From positions 1 through 64,000 of IMG/VR virus record IMGVR_UViG_3300027917_000038: a stretch of DNA of 64,000 bases. The stretch is one strand, 5' to 3'. Shown piece after piece: positions 42,888-63,958 of the stretch (positions within the stretch are counted from its first letter, which is position 1; each line of letters starts with the position of its first letter). Under the pieces are notes generated by a model. It saw nothing but the letters and a program-made list of their open reading frames with translations. It ran no database searches and was not told the DNA's origin. The translations under genes were made by a program, and so were the position numbers. Source of the stretch: a virus.

Positions 42888-42914
42888 AATCCTAAGTGTA
42901 TAATGTTGTATTCA

Positions 42915-42924
42915 TTTATAAATA
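42915..42924 (-). promoter_or_regulatory. TATA box of the late (minus-strand) operon
   Basis: TTTATAAATA centred 32 nt upstream of the start codon at 42887; on the minus strand the context is ATCATATTTATAAAT, repeated before the protease and baseplate genes. Predicts a leader of about six bases. Confidence 0.6.
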
Positions 42925-42968
42925 TGATAGGACATGTTTAAATATTTAAAAATTATAACATAAGTAGA

Positions 42969-42984
42969 GTATAAAAATTTATAC
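42969..42984 (+). promoter_or_regulatory. Palindrome overlapping the TATA box of the RHH gene
   Basis: GTATAAA-AA-TTTATAC is a 7-bp inverted repeat. Its centre lies 20 nt upstream of ATG 42997 and 26 nt upstream of ATG 43003, so it coincides with the TATA box of the downstream gene. A ribbon-helix-helix dimer would bind such a palindrome and block TBP, giving negative autoregulation. Function inferred. Confidence 0.55.
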
Positions 42985-42996
42985 GAGTTGATTTTA

Positions 42997-43146
42997 ATGA
43001 AAATGGTAGGAATAAAAATGAGTGATGAGCTACACAAAGAATTTAAGAGTTTTTGTCTTATGAGGGATACGAATATGTCAGAAGAATTAAGAAGTTATAT
43101 AGTTTTTTGTGTGGGTGAGATGAAAAGACGTAAAAAAGAGGTATAA
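42997..43146 (+). CDS. Ribbon-helix-helix (CopG/Arc-type) DNA-binding regulator
   Basis: 49 aa (47 from ATG 43003). MVGIKMSDELHKEFKSFC forms the N-terminal strand and first helix, NMSEELRSYIVFCVG the second helix, and a KRRKK tail follows: the full ribbon-helix-helix domain. First gene to the right of the divergent region, with a near-leaderless promoter. It could repress itself and the divergent late operon 100 bp away. Confidence 0.7.
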   Translation: MKMVGIKMSDELHKEFKSFCLMRDTNMSEELRSYIVFCVGEMKRRKKEV

Positions 43147-43218
43147 TTTTTAAAAATTCGAACCAAAAGTGCAAAAAAGTCGTAAAAATGTGGCATTTTG
43201 TTTCAAAAAAGTAAAATA

Positions 43219-43250
43219 AGTTTTAAATTTGTAAAACCCCATAGTCGGGG
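43219..43250 (+). repeat. Hairpin repeat, copy 1
   Basis: AGTTTTAAATTTGTAAAA (18 bases) contains the stem TTTTA/TAAAA and is followed by CCCC-ATAGTC-GGGG, a second stem. The same 18 bases recur at 43317 with a similar second stem. Confidence 0.65.
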
Positions 43251-43316
43251 GCAAAAATCTCATTTAAATATGAATTTGCTGGTAAAGAGATGGGGATGAG
43301 AAGTATGAAAAGACAG

Positions 43317-43350
43317 AGTTTTAAATTTGTAAAATCCCTATAATACTGGG
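43317..43350 (+). repeat. Hairpin repeat, copy 2
   Basis: Exact copy of the 18-base unit, 98 bp after copy 1, followed by TCCC, nine or ten bases and a run of seven G. The second stem is kept although its bases differ, which suggests that structure matters. Confidence 0.6.
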
Positions 43351-43537
43351 GGGGTGCGACAAATTTGAAATGAATTCTAAATAGATAAAATTAATTTTAG
43401 GATCGGTTTATTAATTTCATATTCTTGAAAATCAAATTACAAAAAATTTTATGGTGTGGGGGTTTAAGGCGACTCGCCCAGGTCTCTCAAACAAAAGCAT
43501 GCTTACGTATAAAATTTCAACGTTTTCAAGATTACGT

Positions 43538-44214
43538 GATCATTTTCGATCATGTATTATAAAAAAAGAAAAAAAAATATTTGAATCCGATCAAATAAAT
43601 GATCGGAAACTAGCATTTGATTATCATAATTGATCATCTATTTTTCAGATTTCTCAATCATTTCGATCAAATATTTCATTAATTTATCATTTTGACTAGC
43701 TAATCTGATCAATTTCGATATCTTGAAAACTAGTTTTTTATCATTAGTTTTCTTAATTTGATCTTTCGAAATATTAGATTCTTTCATAGTTTTTTCGAAT
43801 TTCGAAAAATTCTTGTAGATATATGATCGAATCTTTGATTCAGATTGATCTTTCAATTTGACGTTTTCGATCATTTGAATATCATTTAAGATCAAAATTC
43901 CGATCAATTCTGATCTTTTAGCGATTTTTTTCGACGTCTTTTGATTAAGATCGTCATATAAATCATTGATCTTAGTCATAGGAATATCAATTTTGATCAT
44001 GAATTTGATCAAATCCGTTTGACGTTTTTTCGAAAATGATATCCATTTTGCATCAAATTGACTAGTCTTTATGATATTTTCGATCTTTTTATTCATGTTA
44101 TCGATCATCTCATAGAGATTTTTGATCACACGTTTATCATTCTTGATCATTATTATTCATTATTCTGATCATTTTGACGATCAAGATCGATCGTTTTAAT
44201 GATCATTTTTGATC
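43538..44214. other. GATC-saturated block, candidate replication origin or methylation-sensitive region
   Basis: A hand count finds about 28 GATC sites in 677 bp, one per 24 bp, against roughly two expected at this base composition. TCGA is also frequent (about 13). The density stops sharply at both ends and covers the coding part and both flanks of the enclosed gene. Sites arise by consistent choice of ATC after codons ending in G, so selection seems to act on DNA. Clusters of GATC mark origins in some bacteria (oriC); a similar use here is inference. Confidence 0.6.
43638..44150 (-). CDS. Lys/Ile/Asp-rich helical protein inside the GATC block
   Basis: 170 aa, strongly helical and basic, no catalytic motif. 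Codon use differs from the rest of the virus: Ile is often ATC, Leu-Ile is repeatedly TTG ATC and Met-Ile ATG ATC, and Ser is often TCG before Lys, producing the GATC and TCGA sites. It is the only minus-strand gene between the late promoter and the orphan at 47.4 kb. It might bind the block that encodes it. Function unknown. Confidence 0.5.
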   Translation of the reverse strand: MIKNDKRVIKNLYEMIDNMNKKIENIIKTSQFDAKWISFSKKRQTDLIKFMIKIDIPMTKINDLYDDLNQKTSKKIAKRSELIGILILNDIQMIENVKLKDQSESKIRSYIYKNFSKFEKTMKESNISKDQIKKTNDKKLVFKISKLIRLASQNDKLMKYLIEMIEKSEK

Positions 44215-53011: not shown

Positions 53012-53680
53012 ATGTCAAAAGTAATGACATTAGGAGATGGATTCTCCAAAAGAAAAGAGCTTCAGTCCGAGTTTATGACTTGGATTAATAGATTGCGCTT
53101 AAGTGGTATGGAAACAACTACATACCGAGTCGAAGATATTAATGACAAGGAAGATAAAGCATTACCTGGCTCCCTTAAGAAGTTCACACGAATTTACTCT
53201 GTTGAAGAGTGTCTTGAAAAATTAAAACAAATTTTAAAAGAGGATCGTGAACTTGCTCTAAGAATTTCTCTTACTAATCAACAAGCCAAAGCCACAATGA
53301 TTGATCTTGAAGGCAAGGAAGTGGAATTAACAATTCCGGAATTAATTGTTCTTAAAAATGAGATCTCACCAAAATTGGAAGAGATTGAAAGAAACATCCC
53401 CACTCGTGCTAAAGGAGTAGAAATTCTGGAAGATGATGACGACCACATCAAATGGAGAGAAATACAAGTAGTCAAAGAAAAAGAAAGAGAAATTACCGAC
53501 AAAGGATTTCAACGAGACATTATAAAGATTAAGGGTTATAATATGAAAGAGTACATGGATTATGGATACACAGAAAGATCGTTATGTGATCGAACAGACG
53601 CAATAAGAGCATGGCAAACTCGTTTGAAAGAAGCAATAAATGAAGCTAATAAAACTCCACTCGTAAATCTCGGGGCATAA
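53012..53680 (+). CDS. Conserved-looking phage protein, unknown
   Basis: 222 aa, helical with charged repeats (KFTRIYSVEECLEKLKQIL; EITDKGFQRDIIKIKGYN). Well-formed gene; no family recalled with confidence. Ends in a long non-coding stretch. Confidence 0.6.
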   Translation: MSKVMTLGDGFSKRKELQSEFMTWINRLRLSGMETTTYRVEDINDKEDKALPGSLKKFTRIYSVEECLEKLKQILKEDRELALRISLTNQQAKATMIDLEGKEVELTIPELIVLKNEISPKLEEIERNIPTRAKGVEILEDDDDHIKWREIQVVKEKEREITDKGFQRDIIKIKGYNMKEYMDYGYTERSLCDRTDAIRAWQTRLKEAINEANKTPLVNLGA

Positions 53681-53908
53681 GATCAAAATGGACGGAATTA
53701 GTAGTTGTAGAAACTACATAAGAAAAAGGACAAACAGAAAAGTGTCTATCCAGTCTGGAAACTGGTTCGTACAGTTGTAGAAAAAGATAAAATATAATAT
53801 ATACATTAAAAATTAAATGTGTATAAATTAGCGACTTTGTTCGCATTAGGCTGGGCTCTACTAAGCCCACATAACCATGATTAGATTATGCCCCATTTTT
53901 TTTATTAA
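53681..53908 (+). ncRNA. Structured non-coding stretch upstream of tRNA-like element 3
   Basis: No gene, but several hairpins: GTAGTT/AACTAC (53701-53717), CCAGT/ACTGG (53750-53765), GCGA/TCGC (53831-53844) and TGGGCT/AGCCCA (53852-53869, loop CTACTA). GTATAAATTA at 53821 could be a TATA box starting an RNA near 53848 that would include the last hairpin and the tRNA-like element. A T-run precedes 53903. Confidence 0.45.
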
Positions 53909-54023
53909 AGGCAGGCTGGTAAAAATCCCACTACGAAATTTTTATTGGAGAATCAACAATGAATTCTAAGACAAAATAAAAAAATTGGAGTTCGGGAAGG
54001 AGGTTCGATTCCTCCACTGCCTA
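53909..54023 (+). ncRNA. tRNA-like element 3 with long insertion
   Basis: Acceptor AGGCAGG (53909-53915) pairs with ACTGCCT (54016-54022) except at the last position, followed by A and TCC. T-arm GGAGG-TTCGATT-CCTCC (53999-54015) is perfect. Between them are 83 nt, about twice the normal 42; GAATT/AGTTC could be a split anticodon stem. The insert shares ACAAT and GACAAA segments with element 1, so the two are probably related. No clear D-arm. Confidence 0.5.
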
Positions 54024-54070
54024 TCCATTGTATCTAATATTTTAGAACAACAACAAATTTAAAGAGAAAA

Positions 54071-60543: not shown

Positions 60544-60814
60544 AAGTGAAATTGATACTGTTTTTGGAATGATGAAATTATTTCACTGGGACAAAACAAG
60601 AGAAATAATGGAACACGGTCTTGGTTGTATCTATGGACACATGAAAGATGCCGCTCCAATGCATTGTAATGGGCTTCCTATGTTTTTTGCTTGGCAATTT
60701 CTTGATAAACCAGACACAAAAAAACTTATTAAAATTTATAACAAATTATTAAAAAAGATGCGTAAATATGACAAAGGAAAAAGATGTGGAGAAGTTTTTG
60801 GAGCAGCTGAGTGA
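60503..60814 (+). CDS. Protein of unknown function
   Basis: 103 aa from ATG 60503 (a start at 60446 would overlap the previous gene by 98 nt). Helical, with HGLGCIYGHMKDAAPMHCNGL in the middle, a His/Cys-rich segment. Confidence 0.5.
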   Translation: MYKGEILTTLQLNESEIDTVFGMMKLFHWDKTREIMEHGLGCIYGHMKDAAPMHCNGLPMFFAWQFLDKPDTKKLIKIYNKLLKKMRKYDKGKRCGEVFGAAE

Positions 60815-61106
60815 AGAGGAACTTGAACAGATAGACAAAGGAGAATATGTAGGTAACGTATGCGATGATTGCATAGACGAAAAGCGTAAAAAAGTAAAAC
60901 ATGATTACAAAGCTGGAGATTATGTTAAATGTGAATTTGAATCCTCTGATGATAGAAATGAATACATGTGGGTTTTAATTGAGGAAATAGATGAAACAAC
61001 CATCACTGGAAGATTAGACAATGATCCAGTCCTCGTACATCAAATAAAGTGCGGAGACACAGTAAAAATAAATAAGGATAAAATAGTACAAGTAATATAT
61101 ATGTAA
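60768..61106 (+). CDS. DUF2314-like protein
   Basis: 112 aa. The C-terminal half, NEYMWVLIEEIDETTITGR, DNDPVLVHQIKCGDTVKIN, has the order of DUF2314 (MWV...G.L.N.P...K.GD.V). N-terminal CDDCIDEK may bind metal. Function of the family is unknown. The next 230 nt carry a structured RNA. Confidence 0.65.
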   Translation: MTKEKDVEKFLEQLSEEELEQIDKGEYVGNVCDDCIDEKRKKVKHDYKAGDYVKCEFESSDDRNEYMWVLIEEIDETTITGRLDNDPVLVHQIKCGDTVKINKDKIVQVIYM

Positions 61107-61108
61107 GA

Positions 61109-61312
61109 GTTCACCATCCAGTCATTTTGGGGAACATACATCATGAGTTTCATTTTATAAGTGAAGAACAAAACACTTTTGCTAAACAAGAGATAGATGG
61201 GTTTGGGTTGCTACATACAAAGCCGTCTTCACTTATTATACATTTCCAGCAATCCAAACCATTATCTCAAACGGTATAATGTTACACGTTTCGTGTGCAA
61301 ATGTAAGCGTTT
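61109..61312 (+). ncRNA. Structured RNA with two interleaved long stems (candidate pseudoknot)
   Basis: In a 231-nt gap without genes, ATAAGTGAAGA (61157-61167) pairs with TCTTCACTTAT (61226-61236), 11 of 11, and GGTTTGGGTTGCT (61200-61212) pairs with AGCAATCCAAACC (61248-61260), 13 pairs with one G-U. The order A-B-A'-B' is that of a pseudoknot or of a switch. Flanking stems: GTTC/GAAC with CCA/TGG (61109-61135), AAACG/CGTTT (61269-61312) enclosing ACACG/CGTGT (61284-61296). It precedes the MoxR-like gene by about 25 nt, so it may be a leader control element or an independent RNA. Confidence 0.6.
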
Positions 61313-61337
61313 AAAACAACGCAAGAGGTAAACCTAA

Positions 61338-62201
61338 ATGAAAAATGTAAAAAATCAAGTAAGATATATTCAACAATATAACGAATTCAATCATTTAGTA
61401 AAATGTATTGAAAGTGCTCCAACTGGAGAAACATTTGGCATCCTATTAATAGGGCCTCCGGGCACTGGTAAAACTCTCTGTGCAATGGATTTAGCACGAC
61501 ATTATAATTCTAATTATATAGTTGTAGATGGAAGTCCACAAACAGACCGAAGAGATTTGGAAGGATGCTGGGAAATAGTTAAAGGAAATACAGTTTTTAA
61601 TAAAGGGCCTCTTTACCAAGTAATAGAACAGGCAAACAATGAAGGAATAGCTTTCTTAGTTTTTAATGAACCAAACGCGGTAAATCCATCGGAACAAATT
61701 AGTTTTAATGCACTCATGACAGAGAATCATATTAACTTGCTTAGCAACGCTGGTAAAAGAATTGAAATTGAACCACATGCTAAACTTATTGTAATAGGAA
61801 CTATCAATTTAAATGTTCTTGGAATAAATGATCTACAAGAAGCATTTGATGATAGGTTCCTTGTTAATTGGGAATTTGAATACCCAGCAAAAAAGAAAGA
61901 AGCAGAAATAATAAAAAAAATGGCTGGTTGTTCAAAATCTCTTGCTGAATTAATTTCTGAATTGGCATACCAATTGAGAGAAGCAGCAATGAAAGATTTT
62001 TCACTTAAAAAACCCTTTTCAACAAGACATGGTGTAAATTTTGCCAAAATGATTTGGGCAATGAAAAGGAAATACATAAGAGAAAACATCCGAACAATGA
62101 TAGTTAGCAAAATAGCAAAAGAGAAAAGAGAAAAGGAATTCATTTCCCAAATTTTAGATGGATTGGACTTTAAGAAACGATTGTGGGATATATTAAAATG
62201 A
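61338..62201 (+). CDS. MoxR/CobS-type AAA+ ATPase
   Basis: 287 aa. Walker A GPPGTGKT (39-46), Walker B FLVFNEPN (about 107-114, with Asn in place of Asp), sensor and arginine-finger-like region (IVIGTINLN, DDRFLVNWEF). This is the MoxR/CobS type that pairs with VWA proteins. The partner follows at once (ATGA overlap). Such pairs act as chaperones remodelling metal centres or protein complexes; in a virus the target is unknown. Preceded by the structured RNA and a ribosome site AAGAGGT. Confidence 0.82.
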   Translation: MKNVKNQVRYIQQYNEFNHLVKCIESAPTGETFGILLIGPPGTGKTLCAMDLARHYNSNYIVVDGSPQTDRRDLEGCWEIVKGNTVFNKGPLYQVIEQANNEGIAFLVFNEPNAVNPSEQISFNALMTENHINLLSNAGKRIEIEPHAKLIVIGTINLNVLGINDLQEAFDDRFLVNWEFEYPAKKKEAEIIKKMAGCSKSLAELISELAYQLREAAMKDFSLKKPFSTRHGVNFAKMIWAMKRKYIRENIRTMIVSKIAKEKREKEFISQILDGLDFKKRLWDILK

Positions 62202-63958
62202 GTGATCCAAAGTTATTAAACAAAACAACAAAAAAAGCGCTGAATGATGTAGCAAAAAGAATTTCTGGGAATAAAGAAATAACATTACGCTTTAGTGGAA
62301 CTTATGATGTTACGGATGGTCAGAAAATTACCATACGAAGAGACGCAGAAAAAAACCTTCGACTAAGCCAAGGACTTGTGGCTCATGAAGCAGGTCATAT
62401 TGGCTACGGGTCATTAGGAAACATTATTAAAGAACTAGTATTTCATTTAACAAACAAATATAAATTGGATGAAGAAACTGCTCGTTCTTTAATGAACATG
62501 GTTGAAGACGCAAGAGTAAATAAAATAAACAATAGAGTTTTCCCTGGTTTTTATCGTTCTCTTAGAGAATGGTTTTATATGAATGTGTTGCCAGAAATAA
62601 GACAACAATCTTTCCATCCATTGCTTCGTGATATAGGACTATATTTTGAGGATTTTGATTGGACATTTAATAATGCGGAACATAAATTAAATGACGAACA
62701 ATTGGATTTAATTGAAACAGCAAAACTAATTTCTGATAAGTTTATTTCACCAGCATCATCTGTTTTTATTTGTAAATTACTTGCTGAATTGTTTAAGAAA
62801 AAACAAGAAGAAGAGGGTGGGAAAAAACAACGACCTTCTCCTTCTCCATCAGCAGACGCACGCACAGATCCATCAGCATCACAAAAAATCTATGACCCAA
62901 ATTTTAAGAAATCACAGGAATATAAAGATGACTACAAATTCATGCAAGACATGAACAAAATGTTGGATGAAGAATTCAAAAAATTGATAGAACAATTGTT
63001 AAAATTAGAGGCTTGTGAAAACGAAGACAATAAAGAATGTGAAGGGTCTATACAACGCATGAGAGACTTTCTTGAAGAACAAGAAAGAAAATTAAGCAAG
63101 TACATACAAGAAGTTATGGTAACTAGAAGACCTTATAGAAAAATAGAAAGACGATATTATTGTAGGAAGGCTAGAGACTTAGAAAAATATCCACCAACAG
63201 CTCTTGAAATAATGAGTGAATATAAAAGGGAAATAGAAACATTAAAAAGATACTTAAATTTATTGGAAAAGAAGTCAGTTAAAAAACAAAAATTTGGTAG
63301 GTTAAATAACGACTGGATGAAAGCAATTGTAGGAGATTATGAAAAATGTTTCTCAAGAAAGAGGTACGAAAGATTACAAAGATTAACTCTCTTAATAGAT
63401 ATTTCTGGAAGTATGACTGGCCCAATGGATGAAGGCGATTATGAAAGATGTCACAAGGAATCAAGAAGACATCTTTCTAAATTATCAGTAGCAAAAATTT
63501 GTTCTGTTATTTTTGGTGAAATATTTAAAGACTTTTGTGATTTAAGAATTGTTCTTTTTACTGGTGTAAAAGATGTTGTTCATCATGTTATCAAGGATTT
63601 TAAAGACACGGTTCATCCACGCGATTATGATGAATTTGGATATGATCAAATGCAGGGAGAAAATTTAGATGGATTGTCTTTAATATACGAGGCAGAAAAA
63701 ATAGGGAGCGATGGAATAATTATTATTGTTTCAGATGGATACCCAGCAGGAGATTATTATAGTCTTGGAGACGCTATTACAGATGTTAATAGAGCAAGAA
63801 AACTGTGTAAATTTATTTTTGCCTTTAGTATTAAGGCACGAGGAGATTATTTAACAGATATGTATGAGAAACATTTTATTATTGTTAAAGATAAAGAGGA
63901 ATTTAGAGAAAAGCTTCTTAAATTTGGAAGAATTTTAATGGAGCAATATTTAAGATGA
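62198..63958 (+). CDS. CobT-like VWA protein with HExGH metalloprotease-like motif
   Basis: 586 aa from ATG 62198. AHEAGHIG (near 64-71) is a zinc-protease-type motif followed by MVEDARVNK, the conserved pattern in CobT/VWA partners of MoxR ATPases. A central Lys/Glu-rich region links to a C-terminal VWA domain with DISGSM (MIDAS DxSxS, about 401-406), and DGYPAGD. Together with the ATPase it forms a two-protein AAA+/VWA machine. Proteolytic activity is possible but not shown. Confidence 0.82.
   Translation: MSDPKLLNKTTKKALNDVAKRISGNKEITLRFSGTYDVTDGQKITIRRDAEKNLRLSQGLVAHEAGHIGYGSLGNIIKELVFHLTNKYKLDEETARSLMNMVEDARVNKINNRVFPGFYRSLREWFYMNVLPEIRQQSFHPLLRDIGLYFEDFDWTFNNAEHKLNDEQLDLIETAKLISDKFISPASSVFICKLLAELFKKKQEEEGGKKQRPSPSPSADARTDPSASQKIYDPNFKKSQEYKDDYKFMQDMNKMLDEEFKKLIEQLLKLEACENEDNKECEGSIQRMRDFLEEQERKLSKYIQEVMVTRRPYRKIERRYYCRKARDLEKYPPTALEIMSEYKREIETLKRYLNLLEKKSVKKQKFGRLNNDWMKAIVGDYEKCFSRKRYERLQRLTLLIDISGSMTGPMDEGDYERCHKESRRHLSKLSVAKICSVIFGEIFKDFCDLRIVLFTGVKDVVHHVIKDFKDTVHPRDYDEFGYDQMQGENLDGLSLIYEAEKIGSDGIIIIVSDGYPAGDYYSLGDAITDVNRARKLCKFIFAFSIKARGDYLTDMYEKHFIIVKDKEEFREKLLKFGRILMEQYLR

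Follow-up and report, generated by a model that had tools for sequence, protein, structure and literature searches.

What might a 231-nt stretch without genes be doing immediately in front of an AAA+ ATPase gene in a virus, and do the two long helices that it can form mean anything? The gap lies in a window of 64 kb (the whole stretch of DNA analyzed, 64,000 nt), which belongs to a virus record of 75,891 bp and encodes a terminase, a DEAD_2-like helicase, and an ERCC4-type nuclease. The virus is probably tailed, and its host is likely to be archaeal, judging from the helicase, the nuclease, and an enrichment of TATA boxes in non-coding DNA. There, TWTATAWR occurs 28 times against 8 expected (~3.5-fold), a number reached in 0 of 200 shuffles, with some sites counted on both strands, as the reverse complement often matches as well. 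The archaeal hallmarks MCM and PCNA are absent from all six records considered, this virus and five relatives. The gap and its neighbors are as follows.

60768-61106, plus strand: DUF2314 protein, upstream of the gap (PF10077, 7.8e-10).
61107-61337, plus strand: non-coding gap of 231 nt with the structured element, between the ORFs 60768-61106 and 61338-62201.
61338-62201, plus strand: AAA+ ATPase, AAA_5/CbbQ-CobS-like (PF07728, 2.3e-17; PF08406, 2.4e-6; phrog_249, 1.2e-30).
62183-63958, plus strand: VWA-type partner with a DxSxS motif; CoxE/CobT-like matches are weak, sub-threshold in Pfam.

The sequence-only reading had described 231 nt without genes, and the gap has exactly this length and is non-coding by codon use. 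Two small ORFs inside it score -0.08 and -0.34 in codon log-odds, compared with 0.07 to 0.62 for real small ORFs of this virus and a mean of -0.28 (sd, 0.26) for spurious ones; their codon use falls in the spurious range, and a protein-coding reading is rejected on this basis. The purine-loading skew typical of the surrounding genes vanishes within 61107-61337, where G+C and A+T skews are near zero, and no terminator-like site is present on the plus strand of the gap. The accompanying claim that genes are otherwise packed without gaps proved wrong: about 4.7 kb of the window fall outside ORFs of at least 60 aa, with several gaps of 100 to 750 nt, and non-coding DNA amounts to ~7% of the whole. 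One such region, 42888-43637, comprises about 750 nt nearly free of genes upstream of the terminase genes and carries many direct and inverted AT-rich repeats; it is possibly an origin or packaging region.

Two interleaved helices, A and B, define the element.

61157-61167, plus strand: helix A 5' arm, AUAAGUGAAGA, a perfect 11-bp Watson-Crick complement of 61226-61236.
61226-61236, plus strand: helix A 3' arm (A'), UCUUCACUUAU, within the loop of helix B.
61190-61196, plus strand: 5' arm of a 7-bp extension of helix B, GAGAUAG, pairing with 61262-61268.
61200-61212, plus strand: helix B 5' arm, GGUUUGGGUUGCU, pairing over 13 bp with 61248-61260 (pairing probability, 0.6 to 1.0).
61248-61260, plus strand: helix B 3' arm (B'), AGCAAUCCAAACC, pairing with 61200-61212.
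61262-61268, plus strand: 3' arm of the extension, UUAUCUC, pairing with 61190-61196.

The interleaving reported earlier is borne out, with helix A made of 11 Watson-Crick pairs and helix B of 13 pairs, one of them G-U. At the sequence level the order A-B-A'-B' is that of an H-type pseudoknot, a topology that the gap can form. Helix B and its extension make up a 20-bp interrupted hairpin whose 35-nt loop holds A'; with a duplex energy of -27.9 kcal/mol, against -12.4 kcal/mol for helix A, this hairpin should dominate the predicted fold.

Could such an arrangement be accidental? A and B are the top-scoring interleaved helix pair of the entire window. When the 231-nt gap was shuffled with its dinucleotide composition kept, 1 of 36,937 sequences reached an equal summed helix score, and an equal pair appeared anywhere in 3 of 152 simulated 64-kb sequences (first-order Markov). 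A chance origin of the pair in this particular gap is thus very unlikely, as had been claimed, and the probability of finding such a pair somewhere when scanning 64 kb is about 2%. Considered as a nested fold, the gap has a z score of -2.65 in one run and of -3.32 (plus strand) and -2.59 (minus strand) in another; 40 control windows of 231 nt averaged -0.25 (sd, 1.33), the lowest being -5.17. Among the other gaps tested, the stretch 53681-53880 alone is comparably structured; the gap around it, 53672-53894 (z about -3.1 to -3.3), has an imperfect closing helix, GGGGCATAAGATC...GATTATGCCCC, followed by a T run, and matches no Rfam family. Nearby, 53910-54025 resembles a tRNA remnant: its ends, AGGCAG/CTGCCT, are acceptor-like, and GGAGG-TTCGATT-CCTCC makes a perfect T-arm. 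With introns allowed, ARAGORN found no tRNA there, and the Rfam tmRNA score of 10.5 bits is far under the cut-off.

Smaller structures and the ribosome-binding site of the AAA+ gene surround the two helices.

61109-61135, plus strand: weak 5' hairpin (pairing probability, about 0.5-0.7).
61148-61166, plus strand: 8-bp local hairpin with 2 G-U pairs (61148-61155/61159-61166), in competition with helix A.
61174-61182, plus strand: possible anti-Shine-Dalgarno strand (core 61176-61182/61321-61327; probability, 0.5).
61283-61297, plus strand: 3' hairpin UACACG/CGUGUG (6 bp; pairing probability, about 0.6).
61307-61322, plus strand: hairpin GCGUU/AACGC, an alternative to anti-Shine-Dalgarno pairing (pairing probability, about 0.5).
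61324-61329, plus strand: Shine-Dalgarno sequence AGAGGU of the AAA+ gene, 8 nt before the ATG at 61338.

The further stems proposed on both sides are therefore present, but they are weak, with pairing probabilities of about 0.5-0.7. In the predicted ensemble the pairing 61176-61182/61321-61327, which covers part of the Shine-Dalgarno sequence, is nested with helix B and crosses helix A. The idea of a structured RNA ahead of the AAA+/VWA genes fits in that the helices are not due to chance, the gap is non-coding, and it adjoins the Shine-Dalgarno sequence; the four functions suggested for it are hypothetical. The accessibility of that sequence is unexceptional: the mean unpaired probability of 0.31 is the 9th lowest of 30 genes, against a genome median of 0.48, and sequestration is therefore not distinctive.

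Do relatives share the element? Five related virus records were found via the terminase, at 71, 68, 61, 61, and 35% identity. In two of these, G001 and G003, the AAA+ protein (49-53%) is retained and adjoins a VWA-type protein (about 33%); in both, genes directly abut the AAA+ gene, with no RNA-like gap before it. Relatives differ in the slot that separates the AAA+ gene from the conserved 59526-59831 gene, and the DUF2314 protein has no match in the five. No homologue of the element was returned by BLASTN against phages, by a DNA search of four records (three being relatives), or by BLAST at relaxed settings across all five relatives; G003 gave a 14-nt match, rejected because it sits inside a coding gene. 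A single-sequence covariance model of the nested part, run over the relatives, gave a best non-self E value of 0.27, which is not convincing, and a covariance model over helix-pattern matches likewise yielded no convincing relative. The inspected matches to patterns of helix B (genome and viral contigs) and helix A (viral contigs) were unrelated, among them an inverted repeat on a contig of bacterial origin and repeated sites at a ParB-like gene. The latter, on an unrelated viral contig (L059:3245-3500), are GTGAAGA/TCTTCAC sites repeated at the start of the ParB-like ORF in a centromere-like manner. Interleaved helices also occur in the relatives; the high-ranking ones that were inspected lie in coding sequence, and the strongest non-coding pair, in G005, consists of iteron-like DNA repeats. 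That region (L047:10246-10404), in non-coding DNA with repeats ATAAGCTTATA..GGATAAGC and long inverted repeats, is a candidate origin. The element is thus an orphan, a real structured candidate from a single genome, and since no relative carries it, we infer its function rather than demonstrate it.

The reading that we favor, tentatively and at somewhat less than an even chance, is that the gap is a structured cis-acting leader (5' untranslated or intercistronic) that is capable of folding into an H-type pseudoknot and tunes expression of the AAA+/VWA genes. The gap directly abuts the AAA+ Shine-Dalgarno sequence, and in about half of the nested ensemble the anti-Shine-Dalgarno strand pairs with the Shine-Dalgarno core. 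The nested minimum is -53.5 kcal/mol. For the pseudoknotted state, a rough hand estimate sums its parts to about -51 kcal/mol: -6.5 for the 5' hairpin, -24.9 for the B hairpin, -13.0 for the 3' part, and -16.5 for stacking of helix A, plus a pseudoknot penalty of about 9.6 kcal/mol. Because these energies lie within a few kcal/mol, both states are plausible and a two-state leader is possible.

How might such a leader work? The gap would be transcribed together with the AAA+ gene and would alter its translation or the stability of its mRNA. Without helix A, the 5' arm of A would lie in the local hairpin, leaving 61174-61182 free to pair with the AAA+ Shine-Dalgarno sequence. With helix A formed, this pairing, now obliged to cross A, would be disfavored, and the 61307-61322 hairpin could form instead, freeing the ribosome site. 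A protein, a ligand, or translation of the upstream genes may act as the trigger. The point of transcription initiation bears on this model: a start upstream of A would allow the pseudoknot, and a start past the A 5' arm would forbid it. The plus strand offers TATA-like sites at 61096 and 61154 (61154-61161), both weak, with scores under those of reference sites. More ambitiously, the element might represent a new class of pseudoknotted regulatory RNA from tailed viruses of archaea, one that switches a MoxR/CobS-CobT-like AAA+/VWA remodeling machine on or off, which we regard as improbable. In a literature search of incomplete coverage, no publication dealt with structured regulatory RNAs of archaeal viruses. 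If verified, a pseudoknot leader controlling a viral AAA+/VWA pair would open a way to study how uncultured viruses of archaea regulate their genes.

An unlikely, though serious, alternative is that the gap encodes an independent small non-coding RNA acting in trans, for example as a decoy or antisense RNA for host or defense, with its own promoter near 61096 and housed in an accessory slot. From the TATA-like site at 61096, transcription would begin near 61123-61126, ahead of both helices, and both the variability of the slot among relatives and the near-zero skews would suit such a gene. However, this site scores 6.2 against 6.9-14.4 for reference sites and ranks 233 among all positions, the plus strand lacks a terminator-like end, and neither an Rfam match nor repeats or a family elsewhere are found.

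Equally unlikely, in our estimate, is an element that acts as DNA, its arms serving as operator sites around a promoter or as part of an origin or recombination site. The TATA-like site at 61154-61161 overlaps the A 5' arm, of which an inverted copy lies 69 bp away, and both the inverted iteron-like repeats of G005 and the repeated sites before the ParB-like gene offer parallels. Yet AAGTGAAGA and GGTTTGGGTTGCT are not clearly over-represented in the window, and the gap shows no tandem or iteron arrangement that would make it an operator or iteron array. It is also the case, as a weak point, that helix B with its extension has G-U pairing on the plus strand where the minus strand would have A-C.

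Somewhat less probable still is a partly fortuitous structure, in which helix B and its extension are real, as a terminator-like structure, processing site, or mRNA stabilizer, and helix A either is a coincidence or cannot coexist with B. The dominance of the B hairpin, the local hairpin that replaces A in the predicted minimum, and the simulated windows that hold an equal pair point this way; the shuffles of the gap alone, and the small share of non-coding DNA in which such a pair could fall, argue against it.

Rfam, a search that the sequence-only reading had called for, has no family for the gap: there is no match at gathering scores, and relaxing E to 10 adds only meaningless miRNA, lncRNA, and plant-virus matches; ARAGORN finds no tRNA or tmRNA in the element. 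Neither a known self-cleaving ribozyme nor a known riboswitch class is accordingly supported, and a ribozyme, intron core, or known riboswitch is most improbable, sharing with the element only a pseudoknotted topology, with a spacing unlike that of the HDV-type double pseudoknot or the group I P3/P7 core.

The favored leader can be set beside several known systems. Like ToxI-type RNAs of type III toxin-antitoxin systems, it is a pseudoknot-capable RNA upstream of a protein gene, but the gap has no tandem repeats of a pseudoknot unit and the neighbor is an AAA+ ATPase (AAA_5) rather than a ToxN-like protein, and we reject this assignment. Phage intercistronic processing or stabilizing hairpins likewise place a strong hairpin between co-directional viral genes, whereas the element has an interleaved second helix and no known processing site was identified in it. 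H-type pseudoknots are found in mRNA leaders, in the preQ1-II and SAM-II riboswitches and the operator of the T4 gene 32 leader. Compared with these, the helices of the element, at 11 and 13+7 bp, are much longer, and its linkers of 32, 13, and 11 nt are long; it is without Rfam similarity or a known ligand and stands in an archaeal-virus context. What it shares with them is an S1-S2-S1'-S2' order adjoining a ribosome-binding site.
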